A DNA stretch of 64,000 bases, taken from positions 992,001 through 1,056,000 of the forward strand of contig NZ_CP015698.1 in assembly GCF_002163715.1 (NCBI RefSeq), in the 5' to 3' direction. Every line of letters begins with the position of its first letter. The first letter of the stretch is position 1. A program made the translations under genes and the position numbers. The notes under the pieces are model-generated. The model was not told where the DNA came from. It worked only from the letters and a program-made list of their open reading frames with translations, and did no database searches. Origin of the DNA: Curvibacter sp. AEP1-3 (GTDB lineage: Bacteria > Pseudomonadota > Gammaproteobacteria > Burkholderiales > Burkholderiaceae_C). Positions 1,255-37,586 of the stretch are shown piece after piece.

Positions 1255-2271
1255 ATGTCTTCCATCTCCATCCGATCTATCCGCAAAGAATTCAAGGGCC
1301 ATCAGGCGCTCAAGTCGATCAGTCTGGAAGTGCGCGATCAAGAGTTCTGTGTGCTACTCGGACCATCCGGCTGTGGCAAAACGACATTGATGCGCATCAT
1401 TGCCGGGCTGGAAACCAAAACCAGTGGCGATGTGTTTATCGGTGATCGCTGCATGAACGGGCTGCCACCTCGCAAACGGAATATCGCAATGGTTTTTCAG
1501 AACTATGCCGTCTTTCCGCATATGACCATTCGTGAAAACATAGGCTTTGGTCTTCGAATGAAAAACGCATCCGCTGAAAGGTTGGAGACCCAGGTTCAGC
1601 GTGCAGCGAGCTTGATGCACATAGAGCACTTGCTGGACCGCTACGCAGGCCAGTTATCCGGGGGTCAACGTCAGCGGGTCGCCGTGGCACGGGCCCTCGC
1701 AGTAGAGCCAGATGTGCTGCTGATGGACGAGCCCTTGAGCAACCTGGACGCCCTGTTGCGTCTTGAGATGCGTAGTGAGCTTAAAGGCCTGCTGCGAGAT
1801 ATCAAGACCACCACCATTTATGTCACCCATGATCAAACCGAGGCGATGAGTCTTGCAGATCGCATAGCGGTCATGAATGGCGGTGAAATTGTTCAATATG
1901 ACTCGCCACCGGTGGTGTACGACCACCCTGCTGATCAATTTGTGGGGGGATTCATTGGTAATCCGCCTATGAACTTCATTACCGATAGCTCAGTGCAAGA
2001 AGCCCTGGGTTGCATGGCGCCATCGCCTGGCCTGACACTGGGTCTGCGGCCCGAGTCGATGGACCTGGTGGACCGCGGTGGCTTGCAAGTGAGAGCCAGG
2101 GTGGTCGAGATGCTGGGGGCATCCCAGCAGATCAACACGTTTGTTGGGGCAGATCTCTTGCGCATCAGTACCGCAGCTCAGCCCACCGTCATGGCCTCTG
2201 ACGCTCTGCAAGTAATAGCAAAACCCGGCGCTGCTCGCTGGTATGACAGTCACAAGAAGCTTGTAGCCTGA
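1255..2271 (+). CDS. carbohydrate ABC transporter ATP-binding protein (UgpC/MalK type)
   Basis: The 338-residue cytoplasmic ATPase energises the importer formed with the two upstream permeases. Visible motifs are Walker A GPSGCGKTT (residues about 37-45), Q-loop MVFQNYAVFP, signature LSGGQRQR, Walker B LLMDEPLSNLD and the switch histidine in YVTHDQTEA. The C-terminal third (after about residue 235) is the TOBE-type regulatory domain, with the typical GLRPESMDL segment. The length is slightly short for the roughly 360-residue family. It starts 15 bases after the permease stop, with a purine-rich AAAGGAAC upstream. Sugar class is inferred from family and neighbours; the exact ligand is not determinable. 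Confidence 0.92.
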   Translation: MSSISIRSIRKEFKGHQALKSISLEVRDQEFCVLLGPSGCGKTTLMRIIAGLETKTSGDVFIGDRCMNGLPPRKRNIAMVFQNYAVFPHMTIRENIGFGLRMKNASAERLETQVQRAASLMHIEHLLDRYAGQLSGGQRQRVAVARALAVEPDVLLMDEPLSNLDALLRLEMRSELKGLLRDIKTTTIYVTHDQTEAMSLADRIAVMNGGEIVQYDSPPVVYDHPADQFVGGFIGNPPMNFITDSSVQEALGCMAPSPGLTLGLRPESMDLVDRGGLQVRARVVEMLGASQQINTFVGADLLRISTAAQPTVMASDALQVIAKPGAARWYDSHKKLVA

Positions 2272-2286
2272 ACAAGGAATTCATTG

Positions 2287-3612
2287 ATGCAATCACACGA
2301 GCAACTTCAAACAGTCGCGCGCGAAACACTGCGCAAAAATGATCGCGGTGGCTACACACTGCCCACACAAGGTTTGTATCCATTCCAATGGAATTGGGAT
2401 GCCGGGATCACTGCTTTGGGATGGATGACATTCGACCCCGCACGGGCTTGGCGTGAATACGAAACGCTTTTTAGTGGTCAGTGGGGGCCTGACCACTTTG
2501 GTGGCGCCAATGACGGCTTTCTGGCCCAGATTACCTTTCACCAGGACAGTGACACTTATTTCCCCGGGCCCGACCAGTGGGGTACCGACAGCCTTGCGAT
2601 ACGGACAAGTTCAATCAGTCAGCCCCCACTGCACGCGACTATGTTGCGTTGGATGTGGAAGCAAGCGGTTCGAACCAGTGAGCGAGACAAGACCCTCGCC
2701 CCGCAGAGGGACATGGCAGAAGCTTGTCTGCAAGACTTGTTGCCCAAAGTGATCGCGCACCACCGTTGGTGGTACCGGTGCCGCGATCCGCAGGGTACCG
2801 GCCTGGTGGTGAACATTCATCCTTGGGAAACCGGGATGGACAACTCTCCGGCGTGGGATGACCCGCAGTCCGCAGTGCTCCCCACCCAGCGACCCTATGT
2901 ACGCAAAGACTTGAACCATGTGGACGCTTCCATGCGCCCCCCGAAAGTCTTTTACGACCGCATGGTGAGCCTCATGGACTTCAATAGTGCGTGTGGCTTT
3001 GATCCCAAGCGCATCTTTGCGGAATGCCCATATCGGGTGAATGACATCGGGATCATCAGCATTCTTCAGCGGTCCAGCATTGATCTGGTGGCCTTATGCC
3101 AGGAGTTCGGCTTGCAAGACTCCGCAACGGAAATGCAACAGCATGTGGACCGCACTCAAGTTGCAGTGGAATCACTATGGTCTGAGCGCTGGCAGCAATA
3201 TGTATCCCGCAATGCACGAACGGGAGCACTTTTGGATGTGCCGACTTCCGCAGGCCTGATGGCGGCATATGCCGGGTTCCAGAAAGATTGCGCCGACACG
3301 GTCGACTCATGGTTGGACGAAACCCTCTACGGCATCCCGTCGACCCGTAGTACCTATATTGGATTCGAGCCTCTTCGTTATTGGCGTGGACCCATCTGGC
3401 AGCACATCAATATGTTGATCGCCGTGGGATTGGCCGATCAAGGTCACGTGGAACTTGCTGACCGTATACGGGTTGATTCAGAGATATTGCTGCGTCAACA
3501 AGGCTTCCATGAGTATTACGACCCCACCAACGGCAGAGGTTTGGGTGGAGGAGAGTTTTCATGGACTGCTGCGACCTACCTCTATTGGATTGAACCCAAC
3601 GCATCACGCTGA
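2287..3612 (+). CDS. MGH1-like (GH63-related) glycoside hydrolase
   Basis: The 441-residue protein matches the mannosylglycerate hydrolase/trehalase-like (alpha,alpha)6-barrel family. Recognisable parts are the N-terminal WNWDAGITALGW segment, GMDNSPAWDDP near residue 182, where the family places its catalytic acid Asp, and the C-terminal GGGEFSWTAATYLYW with the presumed catalytic Glu. Known members hydrolyse mannosylglycerate, glucosylglycerate or related alpha-glycosides. The ATG at 2287 was chosen over the TTG at 2284. No signal peptide is seen, so hydrolysis is cytoplasmic, after uptake by the upstream ABC importer. The exact substrate is inference; a compatible solute or other small glycoside is plausible. 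Confidence 0.8.
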   Translation: MQSHEQLQTVARETLRKNDRGGYTLPTQGLYPFQWNWDAGITALGWMTFDPARAWREYETLFSGQWGPDHFGGANDGFLAQITFHQDSDTYFPGPDQWGTDSLAIRTSSISQPPLHATMLRWMWKQAVRTSERDKTLAPQRDMAEACLQDLLPKVIAHHRWWYRCRDPQGTGLVVNIHPWETGMDNSPAWDDPQSAVLPTQRPYVRKDLNHVDASMRPPKVFYDRMVSLMDFNSACGFDPKRIFAECPYRVNDIGIISILQRSSIDLVALCQEFGLQDSATEMQQHVDRTQVAVESLWSERWQQYVSRNARTGALLDVPTSAGLMAAYAGFQKDCADTVDSWLDETLYGIPSTRSTYIGFEPLRYWRGPIWQHINMLIAVGLADQGHVELADRIRVDSEILLRQQGFHEYYDPTNGRGLGGGEFSWTAATYLYWIEPNASR

Positions 3613-3664
3613 AGTCCTTGTCTTCAGTCGACATTTCTACCGAATACAACATTCGTCTTAAAAA

Positions 3665-4045
3665 ATGACTCCGCAAAGTACTACCCAGCAACGTACAGAA
3701 ACGGTTGAACGCACCATGCGCCCTTGGGGGTGGTACGAAACAGTATCTGAAGTGACCGGCAACAAAATCAAGCGAATTCAGGTCGCCCCGGGACAACAGT
3801 TGAGCCTCCAAAAACACAGTCAGCGCGCTGAACACTGGGTTGTCACTAAGGGCACCGCTCGAATCACCTTGGGTGACAAAGAGTTTGATCTAACGCCGGG
3901 TCAACACTGCGACATAGCTATGGGGCAGGTACATCGTCTGGCCAACCAAAGCGATGAAACAGTCGAGATTGTGGAAGTTCAGTTCGGCAGCTATCTCGGT
4001 GAGGACGACATCGTTCGCTTGGAAGACCACTACGGTCGGGTTTGA
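3665..4045 (+). CDS. mannose-6-phosphate isomerase type II-like cupin protein
   Basis: The 126-residue single-domain cupin resembles the C-terminal phosphomannose isomerase domain of bifunctional ManC/AlgA proteins. RPWGWYETV near residue 18, KRIQVAPGQQLSLQKHSQRAEHW (metal-binding His and Glu region) and VHRLAN are the typical motifs. No nucleotidyltransferase domain is attached, so it is a stand-alone cupin, probably an aldose/ketose sugar-phosphate isomerase. It lies 52 bases behind the glycosidase gene on the same strand, which suggests that a hexose released there is channelled through it. Isomerase activity is inferred; such small cupins are sometimes only annotated as cupin-domain proteins. 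Confidence 0.75.
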   Translation: MTPQSTTQQRTETVERTMRPWGWYETVSEVTGNKIKRIQVAPGQQLSLQKHSQRAEHWVVTKGTARITLGDKEFDLTPGQHCDIAMGQVHRLANQSDETVEIVEVQFGSYLGEDDIVRLEDHYGRV

Positions 4046-4058
4046 CTATTTCAAACCC

Positions 4059-4340
4059 TCAGTGTTCGGAACTTCGCCCTATCGCCCTGAGGCACCAGCG
4101 GAAAATCGCTCTCAAGGCCAACCATAAAGTGCCCAGCGCCATCGGTAAAAAGATAAGCAAAAGATCAATTCGGATATTGCACTCGCCAGAACAGAGTACC
4201 CGCGCAAGCATGAGGTACTCGTACAGCGCGTAGGCCAACCAAACCAGGGCCCAGACCGCCAGGTGGCGCTCACGGTGGACGTACCAAGCGAAGCCAAAAG
4301 CCAGCGCTATTGCCAGTGCGAGAACTACAGCCTGTATCAC
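4059..4340 (-). CDS. small membrane protein, unknown function
   Basis: I do not recognise this 93-residue protein. It has three hydrophobic segments (about residues 3-19, 28-46 and 59-80), so it is probably a small polytopic inner-membrane protein. The start is a GTG overlapping the stop of the upstream SSB-like gene (GTGA), which argues that it is really translated by coupling and is the third gene of the lipocalin-SSB-membrane protein operon. It converges with the cupin gene, with 13 bases between the stops. Confidence 0.55.
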   Translation of the reverse strand: MIQAVVLALAIALAFGFAWYVHRERHLAVWALVWLAYALYEYLMLARVLCSGECNIRIDLLLIFLPMALGTLWLALRAIFRWCLRAIGRSSEH

Positions 4341-4681
4341 CGCGCATCTATCTGCGGTACAGCAAGCGCGTGCTGTTTACGTGCCGCGTGGTAGGAGGTA
4401 AGCACCTGCGTGGCCACCAGGTCCAGTGCGGGGCGCGTATTGCCTTGTTTATCGGTCCACACCTTGGGTGTCAGTGCCCCTGCCAATGCGACAGCATCGC
4501 CATCGTCCAAGGCCATCAACGCGGCACTGGCCTCAGCGGCGAAGGTAATCACGTTCACGATCAAGGTTTCGCCATCGCCTGCGGTGGCTTTGACTTTGGC
4601 CAGTGCGAAGCTGCTGCCGTTTTTGCCCTGACGGATTTCAGCCAATCCCACCAAGTGCCCTGCAATCAGTCCATCGATCAT
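4337..4681 (-). CDS. SSB-like single-stranded DNA-binding protein (OB fold)
   Basis: The 114-residue protein looks like a short SSB-family OB-fold protein: MIDGLIAGHLVG start, FALAKVKA, ETLIVNVITF and the strongly conserved stretch VALAGALTPKVWTDKQG followed by DLVATQVLT. It lacks the acidic DDDIPF-type tail of housekeeping SSB, so it is an accessory SSB of the type often seen near mobile or accessory DNA in Burkholderiales. The ATG at 4681 was chosen over the in-frame GTG at 4687 because an AGGAG lies five bases before the ATG. It sits between a lipocalin gene and a small membrane protein gene, with overlaps or near-overlaps on both sides. Confidence 0.72.
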   Translation of the reverse strand: MIDGLIAGHLVGLAEIRQGKNGSSFALAKVKATAGDGETLIVNVITFAAEASAALMALDDGDAVALAGALTPKVWTDKQGNTRPALDLVATQVLTSYHAARKQHALAVPQIDAR

Positions 4682-4683
4682 GC

Positions 4684-5232
4684 TCACTCCTGCGGGCTGG
4701 GTTCCAAACGCTTCAAATCGAAACCTTGCTGGGCCAGGCGCGCGAGCAAGGCTTCGTAAGCCACTGGTTCAACTTTGGGGGTGCGCGACAGAACCCACAA
4801 ATACTCGCGCTGCGGCTCGCTGACGGCGACCAGCTGGTACTGCGGGTCCAGATCGATGACCCAGTAGTTCCCCCACACCATAGGCAAAAACGACAACCAT
4901 GCTGGGGCAAAACGCACCAGTAGTTTGGGGGAGGTGGCGGGGCCGACTTGTCGGGCGGCACCCAGCGCCTCGGTGATCTGGCCATCCGCCATGATGCAGC
5001 GATTGAGCACTTGCACACTGCCGTCCGGCCGGGCCTCGTATTCCGCACGGGTGTTGCGAGCGCACTTCTTTTGAAAGCTGTTGGGGTACTTGGCAATCTC
5101 GTACCAGGTACCCATATAACGGGGCACATCCAGCGTCGCGATGGTCTGCAGGGCTGGCTGTTCGGCATGGACCCAGGCAGAGCAAGCAGCCCACAACGCA
5201 CCAAAGCACAGCATTAGAAGTTTGTTTTTCAT
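4684..5232 (-). CDS. lipocalin family (Blc-like) protein
   Basis: The 182-residue bacterial lipocalin has the hallmark GTWYEIAKYPNSFQKKC near residues 39-55, MVWGNYWVIDLDPQY and a final WVLSRTP strand. Lipocalins of this type bind lipids or fatty acids in the periplasm or at the outer membrane and are linked to envelope stress. The N-terminus (MKNKLLMLCFGALWAACSAWVHA) is a cleavable signal. A Cys at its end could suggest a lipobox, but the fit is poor, so it may be a soluble periplasmic protein rather than a lipoprotein. The ATG at 5232 is preferred because it starts the signal; the longer frame from 5253 adds a non-signal extension. Confidence 0.9.
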   Translation of the reverse strand: MKNKLLMLCFGALWAACSAWVHAEQPALQTIATLDVPRYMGTWYEIAKYPNSFQKKCARNTRAEYEARPDGSVQVLNRCIMADGQITEALGAARQVGPATSPKLLVRFAPAWLSFLPMVWGNYWVIDLDPQYQLVAVSEPQREYLWVLSRTPKVEPVAYEALLARLAQQGFDLKRLEPSPQE

Positions 5233-26863: not shown

Positions 26864-28765
26864 GTGCGTCCGGCAGGACGCTCTCACTAGGAGGTGAAAG
26901 ACCTCTACTCGCCCTGCAAGGGGAAGGGTTAGCCAATGGCAAGGGCTTCGCGGGCGACTGCGAGTCTGAAGGAAGCCGGATGGCAAAGCGCTGGTTCGAC
27001 GAACAGGAAGCGGATATGAGGCGCCACAGGGGGGTAAGGAGTCCGAAATCTCTGAAGCCCAAAACTTGCACGGAACTCTGTGGCGTAGATCCGACGGACA
27101 TAAGCGTGAAAGTGGGTGCGTAATACCCGGAGAGATCTGAGTGTGGTGCCCGTAAGGGCTACCGGCCATCGAAAGGTGACGGGAGGCTCGCTCAGAAGTC
27201 AGCAGAGGGCATAGTAGGTGCAACCCAAGGTGATGAGCCACAAGAGGCGGCACCGAAGGCCCGAACAAGTGGAAACGAGAGTAGGAACGAAGTCACTCGA
27301 TGCCAATCGATGAAGCAGAAGCCCTCGCAAGAGGGGCCCACAGCGAAGGAACCGGACGGAATCTGGGGAGTGCGCACGTGGGTGCTGAGGTGGGTACGGC
27401 GTACGTCGAGCAACCGAAATCGGAGAGAGACCGGCTCATGAGCCGAGTCGTGGATCGCGACAACATGCAGCTCGCTTACAGCCGAGTCATGAAGAATCGC
27501 GGCGCACCCGGCATTGACGGAATGCGCTGTGAAGACCTCAAGACGTGGCTCAAAGTGAACTGGTCGCAAGTAAAGAAGTCGTTACTGGATGGAACCTACC
27601 GCCCCCAAGCGGTACGTCGGGTGGACATACCCAAGCCGCAAGGCGGGGTACGCACGCTCGGAGTGCCCACGGTGGTGGACAGGCTGATTCAGCAGGCGCT
27701 ACATCAGGCGATGCAACCCCTGTTTGAACCTACCTTCTCGCAAAGCAGCTACGGCTTCAGACCGGGGAAAAGTGCGAAGCAGGCGGTAAGCAAAGCGGCA
27801 GAGTACATCCGTGGCGGCAAGCGCTGGGTGGTGGACATGGACCTGGAGAAATTCTTCGACCGTGTCAACCACGACGTGCTGATGGCGCGGGTGGCACGCC
27901 AGGTACAGGACAAAACCGTCCTGAGCCTGATACGCAGGTTTCTGGAGGCCGGGATGATGGCCAACGGGGTAGAGACACCACGGTACGAGGGTACACCGCA
28001 AGGCGGCCCCCTGTCACCACTACTGTCCAACATCCTGTTGACTGATTTAGACCGGGAGCTAGAGGCACGCAAGCTGCTGTTTTGCAGGTATGCGGATGAC
28101 TGCAACATCTACGTGAGCAGTCAGCGGGCGGGCCAACGCATCATGGAGGGCATAAAGAGGTTTCTTGCAAACCGGCTCAAGCTCACTGTGAACGAGACCA
28201 AAAGTGCGGTTGAGCGGCCATGGAAACGCAAGTTTCTGGGATACAGCGTGACAGCACAACGAGCCAGCAAAATCCGAATAGCCAAGGAAAGCACGCAACG
28301 CCTGATGCACGCCGTGCGCACATACTGTGCACAGGGACGGGGCAGGCCACTGCCCCAGACCATCGAAAAGCTAAATCCGGTTTTACGGGGATGGATGAAC
28401 TACTTCAGCCTGACCCAGAGCCACAAGCCCATCGAAGCACTGGATATGTGGGTACGTAGACGGCTACGCGCCCTGATGTGGAGGCAATGGAAAAGGACAA
28501 AGACGCGGGAATCCAAAATGCTCGCACTCGGGCTCGATGCCCAGCGGGCATGGAAGTCCAGCGTCAATGGCCATGGTCCATGGTGGAACGCCGGTGCCAA
28601 ACACCTGCGCCAAGCTCTCCCGACGAAATACTTCACGCAACTCGGGCTGGTCTCGCTGGTGGCAACCCACCAGCACCTCCAGCGTCCTACTTGAACCGCC
28701 GTATGCGGAACCGCACGTACGGTGGTGTGAGAGGGCTGAGGGGGTAACCCCTCACCCTACTCGAT
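26864..28765 (+). mobile_element. group II intron (IIC-type), copy 1
   Basis: This is a 1902-base retroelement starting GTGCG and ending CTACTCGAT; both ends were fixed by comparing the three copies and their different flanks. The RNA part before the ORF folds into domain I-IV-like hairpins. Domain V lies at about 28695-28726 (ACCGCCGTA pairing with TACGGTGGT, with a CGC triad at 28697-28699 as in IIC introns), and the domain VI hairpin follows (GAGGGG/CCCCTC). Insertion is immediately behind the gabD terminator, typical of class C. It encodes the reverse transcriptase at 27300. Confidence 0.93.
27300..28694 (+). CDS. ltrA: group II intron reverse transcriptase/maturase (copy 1)
   Basis: The 464-residue intron-encoded protein has fingers-palm RT blocks: RGAPGIDGM, SSYGFRPGKSAKQAV, VVDMDLEKFFDRVNHD (catalytic Asp), GTPQGGPLSPLLSNILL and the YADD catalytic box. 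The maturase X domain follows (LNPVLRGWMNYF). The protein ends soon after a short DNA-binding tail (WWNAGAKHLRQALP) and has no HNH endonuclease domain, as in class C. It appears intact and is identical to the proteins at 33820 and 35722. It promotes splicing and retrohoming of its own intron. Confidence 0.97.
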   Translation: MPIDEAEALARGAHSEGTGRNLGSAHVGAEVGTAYVEQPKSERDRLMSRVVDRDNMQLAYSRVMKNRGAPGIDGMRCEDLKTWLKVNWSQVKKSLLDGTYRPQAVRRVDIPKPQGGVRTLGVPTVVDRLIQQALHQAMQPLFEPTFSQSSYGFRPGKSAKQAVSKAAEYIRGGKRWVVDMDLEKFFDRVNHDVLMARVARQVQDKTVLSLIRRFLEAGMMANGVETPRYEGTPQGGPLSPLLSNILLTDLDRELEARKLLFCRYADDCNIYVSSQRAGQRIMEGIKRFLANRLKLTVNETKSAVERPWKRKFLGYSVTAQRASKIRIAKESTQRLMHAVRTYCAQGRGRPLPQTIEKLNPVLRGWMNYFSLTQSHKPIEALDMWVRRRLRALMWRQWKRTKTRESKMLALGLDAQRAWKSSVNGHGPWWNAGAKHLRQALPTKYFTQLGLVSLVATHQHLQRPT

Positions 28766-32172: not shown

Positions 32173-33732
32173 ATGAGCGCTCCCGCCTACGCTGCGCCGG
32201 CCCCCTTGCAGGGATCGGCGCGTCTGTGGGGCACGATTGCCTTGTCAGCCGCCACGTTCATGAACGTGCTGGACTCGTCGATTGCCAACGTGTCTCTGCC
32301 CGCCATTGCCGGCGATCTCGGTGTCAGCTCTAACCAGGGCACCTGGGTCATCACCAGCTTCGGTGTGGCCAACGCCATTGCCCTGCCCCTGACGGGCTGG
32401 TTGTCCCAGCGCTTCGGCCAGGTGCGGCTGTTCGTTACCAGCGTGCTGCTGTTTGTGCTCTCCAGCTGGTTGTGCGGCATTGCCCCTAACATGCCCTTCC
32501 TAATCGGTGCCCGCGCGTTGCAGGGCTTTGTTGCGGGCCCCATGATGCCGCTGGCGCAGACCCTGCTGCTCTCCAGCTACCCGCCGGCCCTCGCGGGTCT
32601 CGCCATGGCACTCTGGGCCATGACCACGCTCGTAGCCCCTGTGATGGGTCCACTGTTGGGCGGCTGGATCACGGACAACGCGCATTGGGGATGGATCTTT
32701 TTCATCAACGTGCCCATCGGTTTCATTGCAGGCTTCATCACTTGGACCATCTTTCACAAGCGCGAGACGCCTACCCGCAAGCTGCCGATAGACACGGTCG
32801 GTTTGGCACTGCTGGTGATTGGTGTGACCGCCATCCAGCTCATGTTGGACCGCGGCAAGGAGCTGGACTGGTTCCACTCAGAAGAGATCATCATCATGAC
32901 CGTGGTGTCGGTGATTGCGTTTGCCTTTTTGATTGCCTGGGAACTGACCGATGACCACCCGGTGGTGGACTTGAAGCTCTTCAAGGTGCGCAACTTCCTG
33001 ACCGGCACGGTGGCCATGTCGATTGCCTACGGGCTGTTCATGGGCAACATCGTGTTGCTGCCGTTGTGGCTGCAAAGCTTTATGGGCTATACGGCTACCC
33101 AGGCCGGCATGCTGATGGCACCGGTAGGTCTGTTTGCGATCATTTTGTCCCCCATCATCGGCAAGAATATCGCCAAGTTCGATACCCGCCGCCTGGCTAC
33201 CGTGGCCTTTCTGGTGTTTGCACTGGTGCTCTGGATGCGCTCGCATTTCAGCACGCTGTCGGACTTCAACACGATGATGATTCCGACGCTGATCCAGGGC
33301 ATTGCGCTGGCGCTGTTTTTCATTCCGCTCACCAGCATCATTCTGGGTGGATTGCCGGGTGACAAGATTGCATCCGCCTCGGGCCTGAGCAGCTTCTGCC
33401 GGGTGCTGTTCGGTTCTTTCGGTACGTCGATCTCGGTCACCGTGTGGCAGGACCGTACCGCACTGCACCACGCGCAGCTCACCGAGATGATCAACCGGGG
33501 CAGCACCGCCTCGAACAGTGCCCTGGCAGGCCTGAACGCTGCGGGCCTGAGTGCAGAGCAAGCCTTCAGCCAGATCAACCGCATGATCGATCAGCAAGCA
33601 GCAACGCTGGCTGCAAACGACGTGTTTTACGCATCGGCCGTGATCTTCGTGTTGCTGATCCCGCTGGTATGGCTCTCACGCCCGGCCCGTAGCGGTGCAG
33701 GGGCCTCCGAGGCAGCCGCCGGAGCGCATTGA
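32173..33732 (+). CDS. DHA2 family (EmrB-type) MFS drug efflux transporter
   Basis: The 519-residue, 14-helix proton antiporter of the major facilitator superfamily has helix 1 FMNVLDSSIANVSLPAIAGDL (motif D1-like), WVITSFGVANAIALPLTGWLSQRFG (motif A) and the GPLLGGWITDNAHWGWIFFINVPIG signature of the DHA2 group. It exports hydrophobic drugs or toxic metabolites across both membranes with the adaptor and channel. It is the last gene of the marR operon, and its stop is 16 bases from an intron copy. Confidence 0.95.
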   Translation: MSAPAYAAPAPLQGSARLWGTIALSAATFMNVLDSSIANVSLPAIAGDLGVSSNQGTWVITSFGVANAIALPLTGWLSQRFGQVRLFVTSVLLFVLSSWLCGIAPNMPFLIGARALQGFVAGPMMPLAQTLLLSSYPPALAGLAMALWAMTTLVAPVMGPLLGGWITDNAHWGWIFFINVPIGFIAGFITWTIFHKRETPTRKLPIDTVGLALLVIGVTAIQLMLDRGKELDWFHSEEIIIMTVVSVIAFAFLIAWELTDDHPVVDLKLFKVRNFLTGTVAMSIAYGLFMGNIVLLPLWLQSFMGYTATQAGMLMAPVGLFAIILSPIIGKNIAKFDTRRLATVAFLVFALVLWMRSHFSTLSDFNTMMIPTLIQGIALALFFIPLTSIILGGLPGDKIASASGLSSFCRVLFGSFGTSISVTVWQDRTALHHAQLTEMINRGSTASNSALAGLNAAGLSAEQAFSQINRMIDQQAATLAANDVFYASAVIFVLLIPLVWLSRPARSGAGASEAAAGAH

Positions 33733-33748
33733 TAAAGCAACAGTCAGA

Positions 33749-35650
33749 ATCGAGTAGGGTGAGGGGTTACCCCCTCAGCCCTCTCACACCACCGTACGTG
33801 CGGTTCCGCATACGGCGGTTCAAGTAGGACGCTGGAGGTGCTGGTGGGTTGCCACCAGCGAGACCAGCCCGAGTTGCGTGAAGTATTTCGTCGGGAGAGC
33901 TTGGCGCAGGTGTTTGGCACCGGCGTTCCACCATGGACCATGGCCATTGACGCTGGACTTCCATGCCCGCTGGGCATCGAGCCCGAGTGCGAGCATTTTG
34001 GATTCCCGCGTCTTTGTCCTTTTCCATTGCCTCCACATCAGGGCGCGTAGCCGTCTACGTACCCACATATCCAGTGCTTCGATGGGCTTGTGGCTCTGGG
34101 TCAGGCTGAAGTAGTTCATCCATCCCCGTAAAACCGGATTTAGCTTTTCGATGGTCTGGGGCAGTGGCCTGCCCCGTCCCTGTGCACAGTATGTGCGCAC
34201 GGCGTGCATCAGGCGTTGCGTGCTTTCCTTGGCTATTCGGATTTTGCTGGCTCGTTGTGCTGTCACGCTGTATCCCAGAAACTTGCGTTTCCATGGCCGC
34301 TCAACCGCACTTTTGGTCTCGTTCACAGTGAGCTTGAGCCGGTTTGCAAGAAACCTCTTTATGCCCTCCATGATGCGTTGGCCCGCCCGCTGACTGCTCA
34401 CGTAGATGTTGCAGTCATCCGCATACCTGCAAAACAGCAGCTTGCGTGCCTCTAGCTCCCGGTCTAAATCAGTCAACAGGATGTTGGACAGTAGTGGTGA
34501 CAGGGGGCCGCCTTGCGGTGTACCCTCGTACCGTGGTGTCTCTACCCCGTTGGCCATCATCCCGGCCTCCAGAAACCTGCGTATCAGGCTCAGGACGGTT
34601 TTGTCCTGTACCTGGCGTGCCACCCGCGCCATCAGCACGTCGTGGTTGACACGGTCGAAGAATTTCTCCAGGTCCATGTCCACCACCCAGCGCTTGCCGC
34701 CACGGATGTACTCTGCCGCTTTGCTTACCGCCTGCTTCGCACTTTTCCCCGGTCTGAAGCCGTAGCTGCTTTGCGAGAAGGTAGGTTCAAACAGGGGTTG
34801 CATCGCCTGATGTAGCGCCTGCTGAATCAGCCTGTCCACCACCGTGGGCACTCCGAGCGTGCGTACCCCGCCTTGCGGCTTGGGTATGTCCACCCGACGT
34901 ACCGCTTGGGGGCGGTAGGTTCCATCCAGTAACGACTTCTTTACTTGCGACCAGTTCACTTTGAGCCACGTCTTGAGGTCTTCACAGCGCATTCCGTCAA
35001 TGCCGGGTGCGCCGCGATTCTTCATGACTCGGCTGTAAGCGAGCTGCATGTTGTCGCGATCCACGACTCGGCTCATGAGCCGGTCTCTCTCCGATTTCGG
35101 TTGCTCGACGTACGCCGTACCCACCTCAGCACCCACGTGCGCACTCCCCAGATTCCGTCCGGTTCCTTCGCTGTGGGCCCCTCTTGCGAGGGCTTCTGCT
35201 TCATCGATTGGCATCGAGTGACTTCGTTCCTACTCTCGTTTCCACTTGTTCGGGCCTTCGGTGCCGCCTCTTGTGGCTCATCACCTTGGGTTGCACCTAC
35301 TATGCCCTCTGCTGACTTCTGAGCGAGCCTCCCGTCACCTTTCGATGGCCGGTAGCCCTTACGGGCACCACACTCAGATCTCTCCGGGTATTACGCACCC
35401 ACTTTCACGCTTATGTCCGTCGGATCTACGCCACAGAGTTCCGTGCAAGTTTTGGGCTTCAGAGATTTCGGACTCCTTACCCCCCTGTGGCGCCTCATAT
35501 CCGCTTCCTGTTCGTCGAACCAGCGCTTTGCCATCCGGCTTCCTTCAGACTCGCAGTCGCCCGCGAAGCCCTTGCCATTGGCTAACCCTTCCCCTTGCAG
35601 GGCGAGTAGAGGTCTTTCACCTCCTAGTGAGAGCGTCCTGCCGGACGCAC
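33749..35650 (-). mobile_element. group II intron (IIC-type), copy 2 (tandem, distal)
   Basis: This 1902-base copy on the minus strand has its 5' end at 35650 and 3' end at 33749 and is apparently identical to copy 1. Its 5' end directly abuts the 3' end of copy 3 with no base between. The 3' flank begins TCTGACTG, close to the end of the efflux operon. It was probably the first arrival at this terminator; copy 3 then inserted at the same exon junction. It encodes the reverse transcriptase at 33820. Confidence 0.93.
33820..35214 (-). CDS. ltrA: group II intron reverse transcriptase/maturase (copy 2)
   Basis: Identical in all 464 residues to the protein at 27300: RT palm with YADD, GTPQGGPLSPLLSN, maturase domain with RGWMNYF, no endonuclease domain. 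Intact, so probably active. Read against the direction of the neighbouring efflux operon. Confidence 0.96.
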   Translation of the reverse strand: MPIDEAEALARGAHSEGTGRNLGSAHVGAEVGTAYVEQPKSERDRLMSRVVDRDNMQLAYSRVMKNRGAPGIDGMRCEDLKTWLKVNWSQVKKSLLDGTYRPQAVRRVDIPKPQGGVRTLGVPTVVDRLIQQALHQAMQPLFEPTFSQSSYGFRPGKSAKQAVSKAAEYIRGGKRWVVDMDLEKFFDRVNHDVLMARVARQVQDKTVLSLIRRFLEAGMMANGVETPRYEGTPQGGPLSPLLSNILLTDLDRELEARKLLFCRYADDCNIYVSSQRAGQRIMEGIKRFLANRLKLTVNETKSAVERPWKRKFLGYSVTAQRASKIRIAKESTQRLMHAVRTYCAQGRGRPLPQTIEKLNPVLRGWMNYFSLTQSHKPIEALDMWVRRRLRALMWRQWKRTKTRESKMLALGLDAQRAWKSSVNGHGPWWNAGAKHLRQALPTKYFTQLGLVSLVATHQHLQRPT

Positions 35651-37552
35651 ATCGAGTAGGGTGAGGGGTTACCCCCTCAGCCCTCTCACACCACCGTACG
35701 TGCGGTTCCGCATACGGCGGTTCAAGTAGGACGCTGGAGGTGCTGGTGGGTTGCCACCAGCGAGACCAGCCCGAGTTGCGTGAAGTATTTCGTCGGGAGA
35801 GCTTGGCGCAGGTGTTTGGCACCGGCGTTCCACCATGGACCATGGCCATTGACGCTGGACTTCCATGCCCGCTGGGCATCGAGCCCGAGTGCGAGCATTT
35901 TGGATTCCCGCGTCTTTGTCCTTTTCCATTGCCTCCACATCAGGGCGCGTAGCCGTCTACGTACCCACATATCCAGTGCTTCGATGGGCTTGTGGCTCTG
36001 GGTCAGGCTGAAGTAGTTCATCCATCCCCGTAAAACCGGATTTAGCTTTTCGATGGTCTGGGGCAGTGGCCTGCCCCGTCCCTGTGCACAGTATGTGCGC
36101 ACGGCGTGCATCAGGCGTTGCGTGCTTTCCTTGGCTATTCGGATTTTGCTGGCTCGTTGTGCTGTCACGCTGTATCCCAGAAACTTGCGTTTCCATGGCC
36201 GCTCAACCGCACTTTTGGTCTCGTTCACAGTGAGCTTGAGCCGGTTTGCAAGAAACCTCTTTATGCCCTCCATGATGCGTTGGCCCGCCCGCTGACTGCT
36301 CACGTAGATGTTGCAGTCATCCGCATACCTGCAAAACAGCAGCTTGCGTGCCTCTAGCTCCCGGTCTAAATCAGTCAACAGGATGTTGGACAGTAGTGGT
36401 GACAGGGGGCCGCCTTGCGGTGTACCCTCGTACCGTGGTGTCTCTACCCCGTTGGCCATCATCCCGGCCTCCAGAAACCTGCGTATCAGGCTCAGGACGG
36501 TTTTGTCCTGTACCTGGCGTGCCACCCGCGCCATCAGCACGTCGTGGTTGACACGGTCGAAGAATTTCTCCAGGTCCATGTCCACCACCCAGCGCTTGCC
36601 GCCACGGATGTACTCTGCCGCTTTGCTTACCGCCTGCTTCGCACTTTTCCCCGGTCTGAAGCCGTAGCTGCTTTGCGAGAAGGTAGGTTCAAACAGGGGT
36701 TGCATCGCCTGATGTAGCGCCTGCTGAATCAGCCTGTCCACCACCGTGGGCACTCCGAGCGTGCGTACCCCGCCTTGCGGCTTGGGTATGTCCACCCGAC
36801 GTACCGCTTGGGGGCGGTAGGTTCCATCCAGTAACGACTTCTTTACTTGCGACCAGTTCACTTTGAGCCACGTCTTGAGGTCTTCACAGCGCATTCCGTC
36901 AATGCCGGGTGCGCCGCGATTCTTCATGACTCGGCTGTAAGCGAGCTGCATGTTGTCGCGATCCACGACTCGGCTCATGAGCCGGTCTCTCTCCGATTTC
37001 GGTTGCTCGACGTACGCCGTACCCACCTCAGCACCCACGTGCGCACTCCCCAGATTCCGTCCGGTTCCTTCGCTGTGGGCCCCTCTTGCGAGGGCTTCTG
37101 CTTCATCGATTGGCATCGAGTGACTTCGTTCCTACTCTCGTTTCCACTTGTTCGGGCCTTCGGTGCCGCCTCTTGTGGCTCATCACCTTGGGTTGCACCT
37201 ACTATGCCCTCTGCTGACTTCTGAGCGAGCCTCCCGTCACCTTTCGATGGCCGGTAGCCCTTACGGGCACCACACTCAGATCTCTCCGGGTATTACGCAC
37301 CCACTTTCACGCTTATGTCCGTCGGATCTACGCCACAGAGTTCCGTGCAAGTTTTGGGCTTCAGAGATTTCGGACTCCTTACCCCCCTGTGGCGCCTCAT
37401 ATCCGCTTCCTGTTCGTCGAACCAGCGCTTTGCCATCCGGCTTCCTTCAGACTCGCAGTCGCCCGCGAAGCCCTTGCCATTGGCTAACCCTTCCCCTTGC
37501 AGGGCGAGTAGAGGTCTTTCACCTCCTAGTGAGAGCGTCCTGCCGGACGCAC
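35651..37552 (-). mobile_element. group II intron (IIC-type), copy 3 (tandem, proximal)
   Basis: A 1902-base minus-strand copy with 5' end at 37552 and 3' end at 35651. Its upstream exon reads T9-CG, the end of the terminator stem-loop at 37555-37586, matching the T8-CG upstream of copy 1. Its 3' exon is copy 2 itself. Domain V is in the mirror position to copy 1. It encodes the reverse transcriptase at 35722. Confidence 0.93.
35722..37116 (-). CDS. ltrA: group II intron reverse transcriptase/maturase (copy 3)
   Basis: The third identical 464-residue intron-encoded reverse transcriptase/maturase, with YADD box and maturase domain intact and no endonuclease. It is head to tail with copy 2; both are transcribed leftwards from the terminator-proximal side. 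Confidence 0.96.
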   Translation of the reverse strand: MPIDEAEALARGAHSEGTGRNLGSAHVGAEVGTAYVEQPKSERDRLMSRVVDRDNMQLAYSRVMKNRGAPGIDGMRCEDLKTWLKVNWSQVKKSLLDGTYRPQAVRRVDIPKPQGGVRTLGVPTVVDRLIQQALHQAMQPLFEPTFSQSSYGFRPGKSAKQAVSKAAEYIRGGKRWVVDMDLEKFFDRVNHDVLMARVARQVQDKTVLSLIRRFLEAGMMANGVETPRYEGTPQGGPLSPLLSNILLTDLDRELEARKLLFCRYADDCNIYVSSQRAGQRIMEGIKRFLANRLKLTVNETKSAVERPWKRKFLGYSVTAQRASKIRIAKESTQRLMHAVRTYCAQGRGRPLPQTIEKLNPVLRGWMNYFSLTQSHKPIEALDMWVRRRLRALMWRQWKRTKTRESKMLALGLDAQRAWKSSVNGHGPWWNAGAKHLRQALPTKYFTQLGLVSLVATHQHLQRPT

Positions 37553-37554
37553 CG

Positions 37555-37586
37555 AAAAAAAAACGGGGCCGAGGCCCCGTTTTTTT
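37555..37586 (-). terminator. bidirectional Rho-independent terminator, target of tandem introns
   Basis: CGGGGCC-GA-GGCCCCG (37564-37579) is flanked by nine A on one side and seven T on the other, so it works on both strands. For the minus-strand membrane protein gene (37602) it is the natural terminator. The intron follows its T run after CG. Confidence 0.92.

Follow-up and report, generated by a model that had tools for sequence, protein, structure and literature searches.

Two identical group IIC introns stacked without a spacer behind one terminator of Curvibacter sp. AEP1-3, probably by repeated homing

How can two copies of one mobile intron come to stand behind a single terminator with no nucleotide between them? 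This question is raised by a stretch of 64,000 nucleotides of Curvibacter sp. AEP1-3 (contig NZ_CP015698.1, positions 992,001 to 1,056,000; hereafter the window), whose minus strand carries two group IIC introns of 1902 nt each, identical base by base. Direct reading of the minus strand gives, in this order, a terminator, the upstream intron, the downstream intron and TCTGACTG... (coordinates in Table 1): the upstream copy terminates in ...CCCTACTCGAT at 35651, the downstream copy starts with GTGCGTCC... at 35650, and CTCGAT of the former directly abuts GTGCG of the latter, with a spacer of 0 nt. The zero-spacer head-to-tail arrangement put forward in the initial annotation of the window, whose "copy 3" and "copy 2" coincide with our upstream and downstream copies, is thus borne out, with exact ends and identity over the full 1902 nt. 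A third copy, on the plus strand of the window, is identical to both over the same length, and such identity over 1.9 kb excludes chance. As argued below, the pair probably stems from two retrohoming events of one active-looking intron at one terminator.

Each copy matches three Rfam families above the gathering score (group-II-D1D4-3, group-II-D1D4-1 and Intron_gpII, the last representing domain V/VI) and is thereby recognized as a group II ribozyme, domain V/VI included. Each also contains an open reading frame (ORF) for a reverse transcriptase (RT)/maturase of 464 amino acids (aa), with YADD at residue 264 in both minus-strand copies. This intron-encoded protein (IEP) matches TIGR04416 and, in Pfam, RVT_1 and GIIM only; it thus combines RT and maturase without an endonuclease domain, the absence of HNH being judged from the Pfam list. 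Neither copy lies inside the other and both are complete, so that the pair is not a twintron. With its D1-D4 and DV/VI matches, an IEP of the size of those lacking an endonuclease, a hairpin with a T tract at the insertion point and a proposed short pairing between exon-binding site 1 (EBS1) and intron-binding site 1 (IBS1), the element resembles the group IIC (bacterial class C) introns described in general terms in excerpts of PMC4424553, PMC3522654, PMC3898094 and PMC7161350.

The arrangement is repeated elsewhere in the genome. A search of the source assembly (4.38 Mb, two contigs) with the intron gave 13 matches, namely 11 full copies at 100% identity and two fragments. The full copies occupy seven sites: four zero-spacer doublets (C1:215643-219446, 1025749-1029552, which is the window pair, 2736780-2740583 and 3353564-3357367), two sites where a lone copy follows a terminator and an odd site with one copy. 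All seven 5' exons consist of a hairpin and a T tract, which places every insertion just behind a terminator hairpin (-12.9 to -21.9 kcal/mol, folded without a shuffle control). Six of these exons end in CG or TTTG directly behind the hairpin and T tract and the seventh in ACG, and the first base of the native 3' exon is C or T at 7/7 sites. The 11 identical copies imply recent activity of the intron, presumably in splicing and retrohoming.

The odd site bears on a concern voiced in the initial annotation, that the tandem is an assembly error, a repeat contig having been entered twice where the site holds one intron only. At C1:2456164-2458550 (L005, L012, L013, L035), intron positions 1-350 are followed by an N, TTTTTCG, a full intron, a C and intron positions 1777-1902. 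This is likely a gap-filling scar of the assembly, and one relative (L133) has the site spanned without insert. Moreover, the copies being 100% identical, the assembler may have mixed up reads from separate sites. The four doublets, however, have different flanks and exact junctions and lack the marks of the scar, with no N, partial copy, stray exon base or extra nucleotide. A join of collapsed-repeat contigs should also bring along the G common to the seven 5' exons, which the doublet junctions do not contain, and independent finished sequences possess such pairs as well. We therefore consider an assembly error improbable; the concern is weakened, and the scar in the same assembly keeps it from being removed.

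The doublet sites of relatives were tested by aligning the joined flanks. One relative with a single contig (G005) has all four sites spanned without insert, for example as GGGCCTCGGCCCCGTTTTTTTCG^TCTGACTGTTGC at the window site. There, the terminator without intron that the initial annotation had suggested seeking in related genomes was recovered, the joined site being spanned in 6/6 loci aligned (these six belong to 11 loci that were read in relatives). At the other sites it was spanned in 2/4 loci (C1:3353564), 4/4 (C1:2736780) and 2/4 (C1:215643), the remaining loci aligning on one side or in parts only. At one window-site locus (L115) the aligner moves the junction by 3 nt, and T-tract lengths differ. 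The uninterrupted site, ...GGCCCCGTTTTTTTCG^TCTGACTGTTGC..., sets both outer boundaries of the window pair. Since the doublet sites are uninterrupted in relatives, the pairs were inserted precisely: by this comparison, each site gained two complete introns and nothing else. Tandem duplication by recombination, already disfavored in the initial annotation, does not fit the pair, as no exon base stands between the copies, the flanking sequence is not repeated there and the site is continuous in relatives.

Among 103 genomes of the genus (three candidates scored per genome), 10 gave a match with the intron, the source genome included; the matches in the others are partial or diverged, at best 83% over 1131 nt, and no sister copy of the window doublet was found in this set. 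The exact junction, with up to three mismatches allowed, occurred only in the source genome among 399 genomes of the family and 369 of the class (overlapping sets), and viral contigs gave 0 matches. In the locus closest by identity (96%; L107, G020 C129), the contig breaks off within the same terminator, as though a repeat started at that point, and an intron at that site is possible. A further observation concerns the C1:215643 doublet (L037, minus strand): about 30-90 nt before its intron lies a stretch of 45-60 nt with 15-40 matches per genome in four relatives, which resembles a dispersed palindromic repeat.

A group IIC intron recognizes its target through a hairpin and IBS1 upstream of the insertion point and one base, IBS3, downstream of it. 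Because nearly all of this target lies on the 5' side, hairpin and IBS1 would survive an insertion, and re-homing would therefore place the newcomer upstream. In the course of events that we favor, a first copy would have reverse-spliced into DNA just behind the hairpin and IBS1, sparing both, and a second ribonucleoprotein would have reused them, its intron coming in after the 5' exon and directly before nucleotide 1 of the resident. The upstream copy would then be the newcomer, and the resident would have turned into its 3' exon. As both copies are identical, this order is unreadable in the window; its order and number of events are what we infer from the exact junctions, the empty sites of relatives and the series found elsewhere.

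Pairing with the target agrees with this scheme. The motif CGAAA in a hairpin loop, which by the architecture of IIC introns we propose to be EBS1, pairs at 5/5 positions with six of the 5' exons and at 4/5 with one. When a short EBS1-IBS1 pairing was tested together with a one-base EBS3-IBS3 pairing, the proposed EBS1 reached 4-5/5 and position +1, the supposed partner of a putative EBS3, was C or T at 7/7 native sites. EBS1 changes together with IBS1 in a related intron, X, described below. Placed in the register of the exons, the 3' end of the intron itself makes only 1/5 pairs with EBS1 and is a poor target. This bears on the alternative that the second copy landed downstream, using the domain VI hairpin and CTCGAT at the 3' end of the resident: a hairpin does lie near that end, and UACUCGAU pairs freely with EBS1 out of register (-2.7 kcal/mol), but the in-register pairing argues against it, as do two cases from other genomes in which the resident, or the copy with private changes, is the downstream one. 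No series with an upstream resident and a downstream newcomer was found, and we regard a downstream landing as very improbable.

The first of these cases comes from plasmids. A plasmid junction search returned 10 records with at least 80% coverage, of which four were inspected (H41, H42, H45 and H46, leaving H43, H44 and H47-H50 aside): H41 and H45 hold pairs, whereas a single ORF-less intron is present in each of H42 and H46. For the backbone site, four of six other records were inspected (H137, H138, H139, H141). In pHD6515-VIM, intron X (1920 nt) lies directly upstream of a different intron, Y. At this backbone site, pHN39-SIM and a Stenotrophomonas plasmid (S. rhizophila GA1) have no intron, p716811-VIM has an empty site of diverged form, and pKF715B has Y alone. 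Since Y stands alone in this sister plasmid and is identical over 1877 nt between pHD6515-VIM and pKF715B, Y was resident first and X arrived upstream. Read as a sequence series, these plasmids demonstrate that, in related elements, a resident intron can acquire a newcomer on its upstream side.

The junction between X and Y gives the register of landing. After X, Y starts at its second nucleotide, and the 5' exon of X is TTTTTTTTGG in pHD6515-VIM vs TTTTTTTTCG in pKF715B; the simplest account is that one C was lost and X inserted behind the first G of Y. The EBS1 of X (CCAAA) differs from that of the window intron and makes 5/5 pairs with the TTTTGG preceding X. As X sits behind a sequence matching its own EBS1, it is IBS1, and not the edge of Y, that sets the landing register. 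Similar pairs thus occur on two Pseudomonas plasmids, the second being a P. kurunegalensis plasmid with X twice, zero spacer and identity over 1920 nt, these being the only X copies on the plasmid. For L090, the only relative (L101) lacks an intron behind the terminator but is unaligned on the 3' side, and it was left out of the empty sites. ORF-less IIC introns were also seen on Pseudomonas and Aeromonas plasmids (L091 and L092, each at ~4430-5115).

The second case emerged from a junction scan of one genome per species over 84,980 species, which returned 26 stretches, sorted partly by eye. In four, the junction is clearly flanked by intron sequence on either side (L042, L046, L058, L065), the two units of L042 being identical; in three, an intron end runs into a longer stretch that resembles an intron start (L043, L059, L061), and in three, no more than 13-20 nt of intron start come after a domain V/VI match (L055, L057, L060). 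Two lie so close to a contig end that they escape judgment (L047, L064), three are unclear (L049, L051, L054), and 11, without sign of an intron, were taken as chance. One of the four clear cases is the complete chromosome of Clostridiaceae 14S0207 (G103), in which 18 intron copies are full or nearly so and two abut each other. The members of this doublet differ at four positions: private changes are absent from the upstream one, which carries a sub-lineage mark (G743A), and number two in the downstream one, which has T1141C. Among the 136 pairs formed by 17 copies, a set without the 1921-nt L082, the median is three differences and 86 pairs are closer than the doublet. Being no closer than a typical pair, its members derive from different source copies, and by its lack of private changes the upstream member looks younger. 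A genus search over three genomes for the pre-insertion state matched G103 alone.

The upstream position of the newcomer, as proposed in the initial annotation, is therefore seen in the plasmid series and in the Clostridiaceae doublet, and for the window it stands as a probable order between identical copies. Several other structures from these searches deserve mention in their own right. G103 C1:2099380-2100993 is an intron copy without positions 867-1172, an internal deletion. In L061, a second group II intron (ending at ~3685) breaks the RT gene of a IIC intron (1766-4350) close to the YADD region, and the IIC intron is itself directly followed by an intron-like start, being nested and stacked at once. 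In L060 (~2213-2340) and in the first 100 nt of L047 (minus strand), an intron 3' end is followed by only a 20-nt palindromic start (GTGCGCCCGGCAGGGCGCAC) and then by a terminator in reverse orientation; an inversion through the start hairpin in a former tandem may have left this trace.

Several observations weigh against two independent homing events. Out of register, native exons and the intron end are not told apart by their free-duplex energies (-2.7 kcal/mol for the intron end, as against -3.1 for TTTTTTCG and +0.3 for a native exon), and the proposed EBS1 hairpin folds no better than shuffles (z -0.33). The doublet junction has G at +1, vs C or T at the seven native 3' exons, so that the supposed IBS3 is off-type, though a G as downstream base seems tolerated, since 2/17 native sites of G103 have it. 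For the X-Y junction, a 1-nt change beside the T tract must be assumed. No triplet of introns was seen. Finally, doublets are too frequent for random hits. A strict target scan found 19 in 121,082 bases and seven in 58,294 bases in the window, from which 524-685 usable terminators are extrapolated; the window figure is given because five of the six sampled stretches were chosen for holding the intron, and a first count (129 in 121,082 bases) was too loose and was replaced. In simulations of 11 insertions into equal targets, four doublets arose in 0 of 200,000 runs at 400 targets, in 1 in 100,000 at 200 and in 0.19% at 50. This excess means that occupied or hot sites are strongly preferred, or that doublets form in one step, or that some are artefacts.

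The one-step possibility is that each doublet stems from a single event, the RT copying one intron RNA up to its 5' end and jumping to the 3' end of another, which it copies in turn, or copying a dimeric or circular intron RNA, and so inserting a head-to-tail pair. It accounts for four doublets at seven sites without repeated hits and for the identity of their members, as well as for the identical units of L042 and the sole two X copies of the P. kurunegalensis plasmid. End-to-end template switching of group II RTs is described in passages of PMC3898094, and perfect intron circles of Ll.LtrB in passages of PMC6248898. A single event, however, leaves X and Y unexplained, the sister plasmid having Y alone, and does not easily explain a G103 pair from two sub-lineages; triplets would be expected too. 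Furthermore, part of the in vitro jumps carry extra nucleotides according to an excerpt of PMC3280974, whereas the four junctions here have none. We hold such an origin to be rather unlikely for these doublets. A combined form, in which the family inserts head-to-tail dimers in single events, by a seamless RT jump or an intron circle, and re-homing at occupied terminators adds mixed pairs, is likewise a tentative option only. Repeated homing, with the upstream copy as newcomer, remains the reading that we favor.

At the RNA level, the upstream copy could splice first, which would rejoin the downstream copy to its true 5' exon. The downstream copy would not readily be excised while the upstream copy is present, because its 5' neighbor (ACUCGAU) makes 1/5 pairs with EBS1. 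A stepwise removal is thus expected, upstream copy first, the buried copy being freed only afterwards, and removal of both as one unit may also occur.

Table 1. Features of the stacked intron pair and of its surroundings, in window coordinates
Feature	Coordinates	Strand	Remarks
Group IIC intron, upstream (proximal) copy	35651..37552	-	1902 nt; 5' junction TTTTTTTTTCG/GTGCG
Group IIC intron, downstream (distal) copy	33749..35650	-	1902 nt; 3' junction CTCGAT/TCTGACTG
Zero-nucleotide intron-intron junction (...CTCGAT/GTGCG...)	35650..35651	-	Mismatch-free at four genome places
RT/maturase ORF (464 aa), upstream copy	35722..37116	-	Identical protein of the other copy: TIGR04416, RVT_1, GIIM
RT/maturase ORF (464 aa), downstream copy	33820..35214	-	TIGR04416, RVT_1 and GIIM matches
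5' exon: terminator hairpin, T tract and IBS1 (...TTTTCG), the intron target	37553..37586	-	Fold -19.4 kcal/mol; continuous with 3' exon in relatives
3' exon start (TCTGACTGTTGC...)	33724..33748	-	Tail side of convergent MFS transporter gene 32173-33732
Proposed EBS1 (CGAAA), upstream copy	37368..37372	-	Loop position; 4-5/5 pairs with seven exons
Proposed EBS1 (CGAAA), downstream copy	35466..35470	-	Loop position; 4-5/5 pairs with seven exons
Lone further copy of this intron, behind a different terminator	26864..28765	+	ORF 27300-28694

A simple terminator scan found two sites, fewer than in shuffles (4.6), and the exon terminator of Table 1 was not among them; the probable reason is that its T tract, being paired with an A tract, was scored as part of the stem.

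Most site-specific introns destroy their own target upon insertion and are thereby held to a single copy at each site. Group IIC introns seem to be without that brake, their target lying upstream and surviving insertion. While IIC introns are described as single insertions in the excerpts cited above, here they form spacerless stacks at one terminator, four times in one genome. A close parallel is that of the twintrons of T. elongatus and M. acetivorans, in which a group II intron lands in another, with a "perpetual homing site" in M. acetivorans (passages of PMC4424553 and PMC2882425). In both situations one group II intron serves another as landing place; twintrons, however, are nested inside the resident, whereas here the newcomer abuts the first nucleotide of a resident that stays whole (in the X-Y pair, L089, whole minus its first nucleotide). 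Head-to-tail intron cDNA, often seamless, is made in vitro by LtrA jumping between intron RNAs, and the excerpt of PMC3280974 that describes it for Ll.LtrB mentions no genomic doublet, whereas the doublets here are genomic. The open-licence PMC literature, a set outside which the founding IIC papers lie, yielded nested twintrons and single IIC insertions and no report of zero-spacer IIC stacking, an absence that is no proof of novelty.

The stacks raise the questions of sequential splicing of stacked introns, of the mobility of a buried copy, and of repeated homing versus RT template jumping inside the cell. If dimer insertion were true, doublets would be a regular product of retrohoming, and IIC introns would lack target immunity and could build arrays. 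With repeated homing, terminators would be reusable docking points that allow stacks of identical or different introns.

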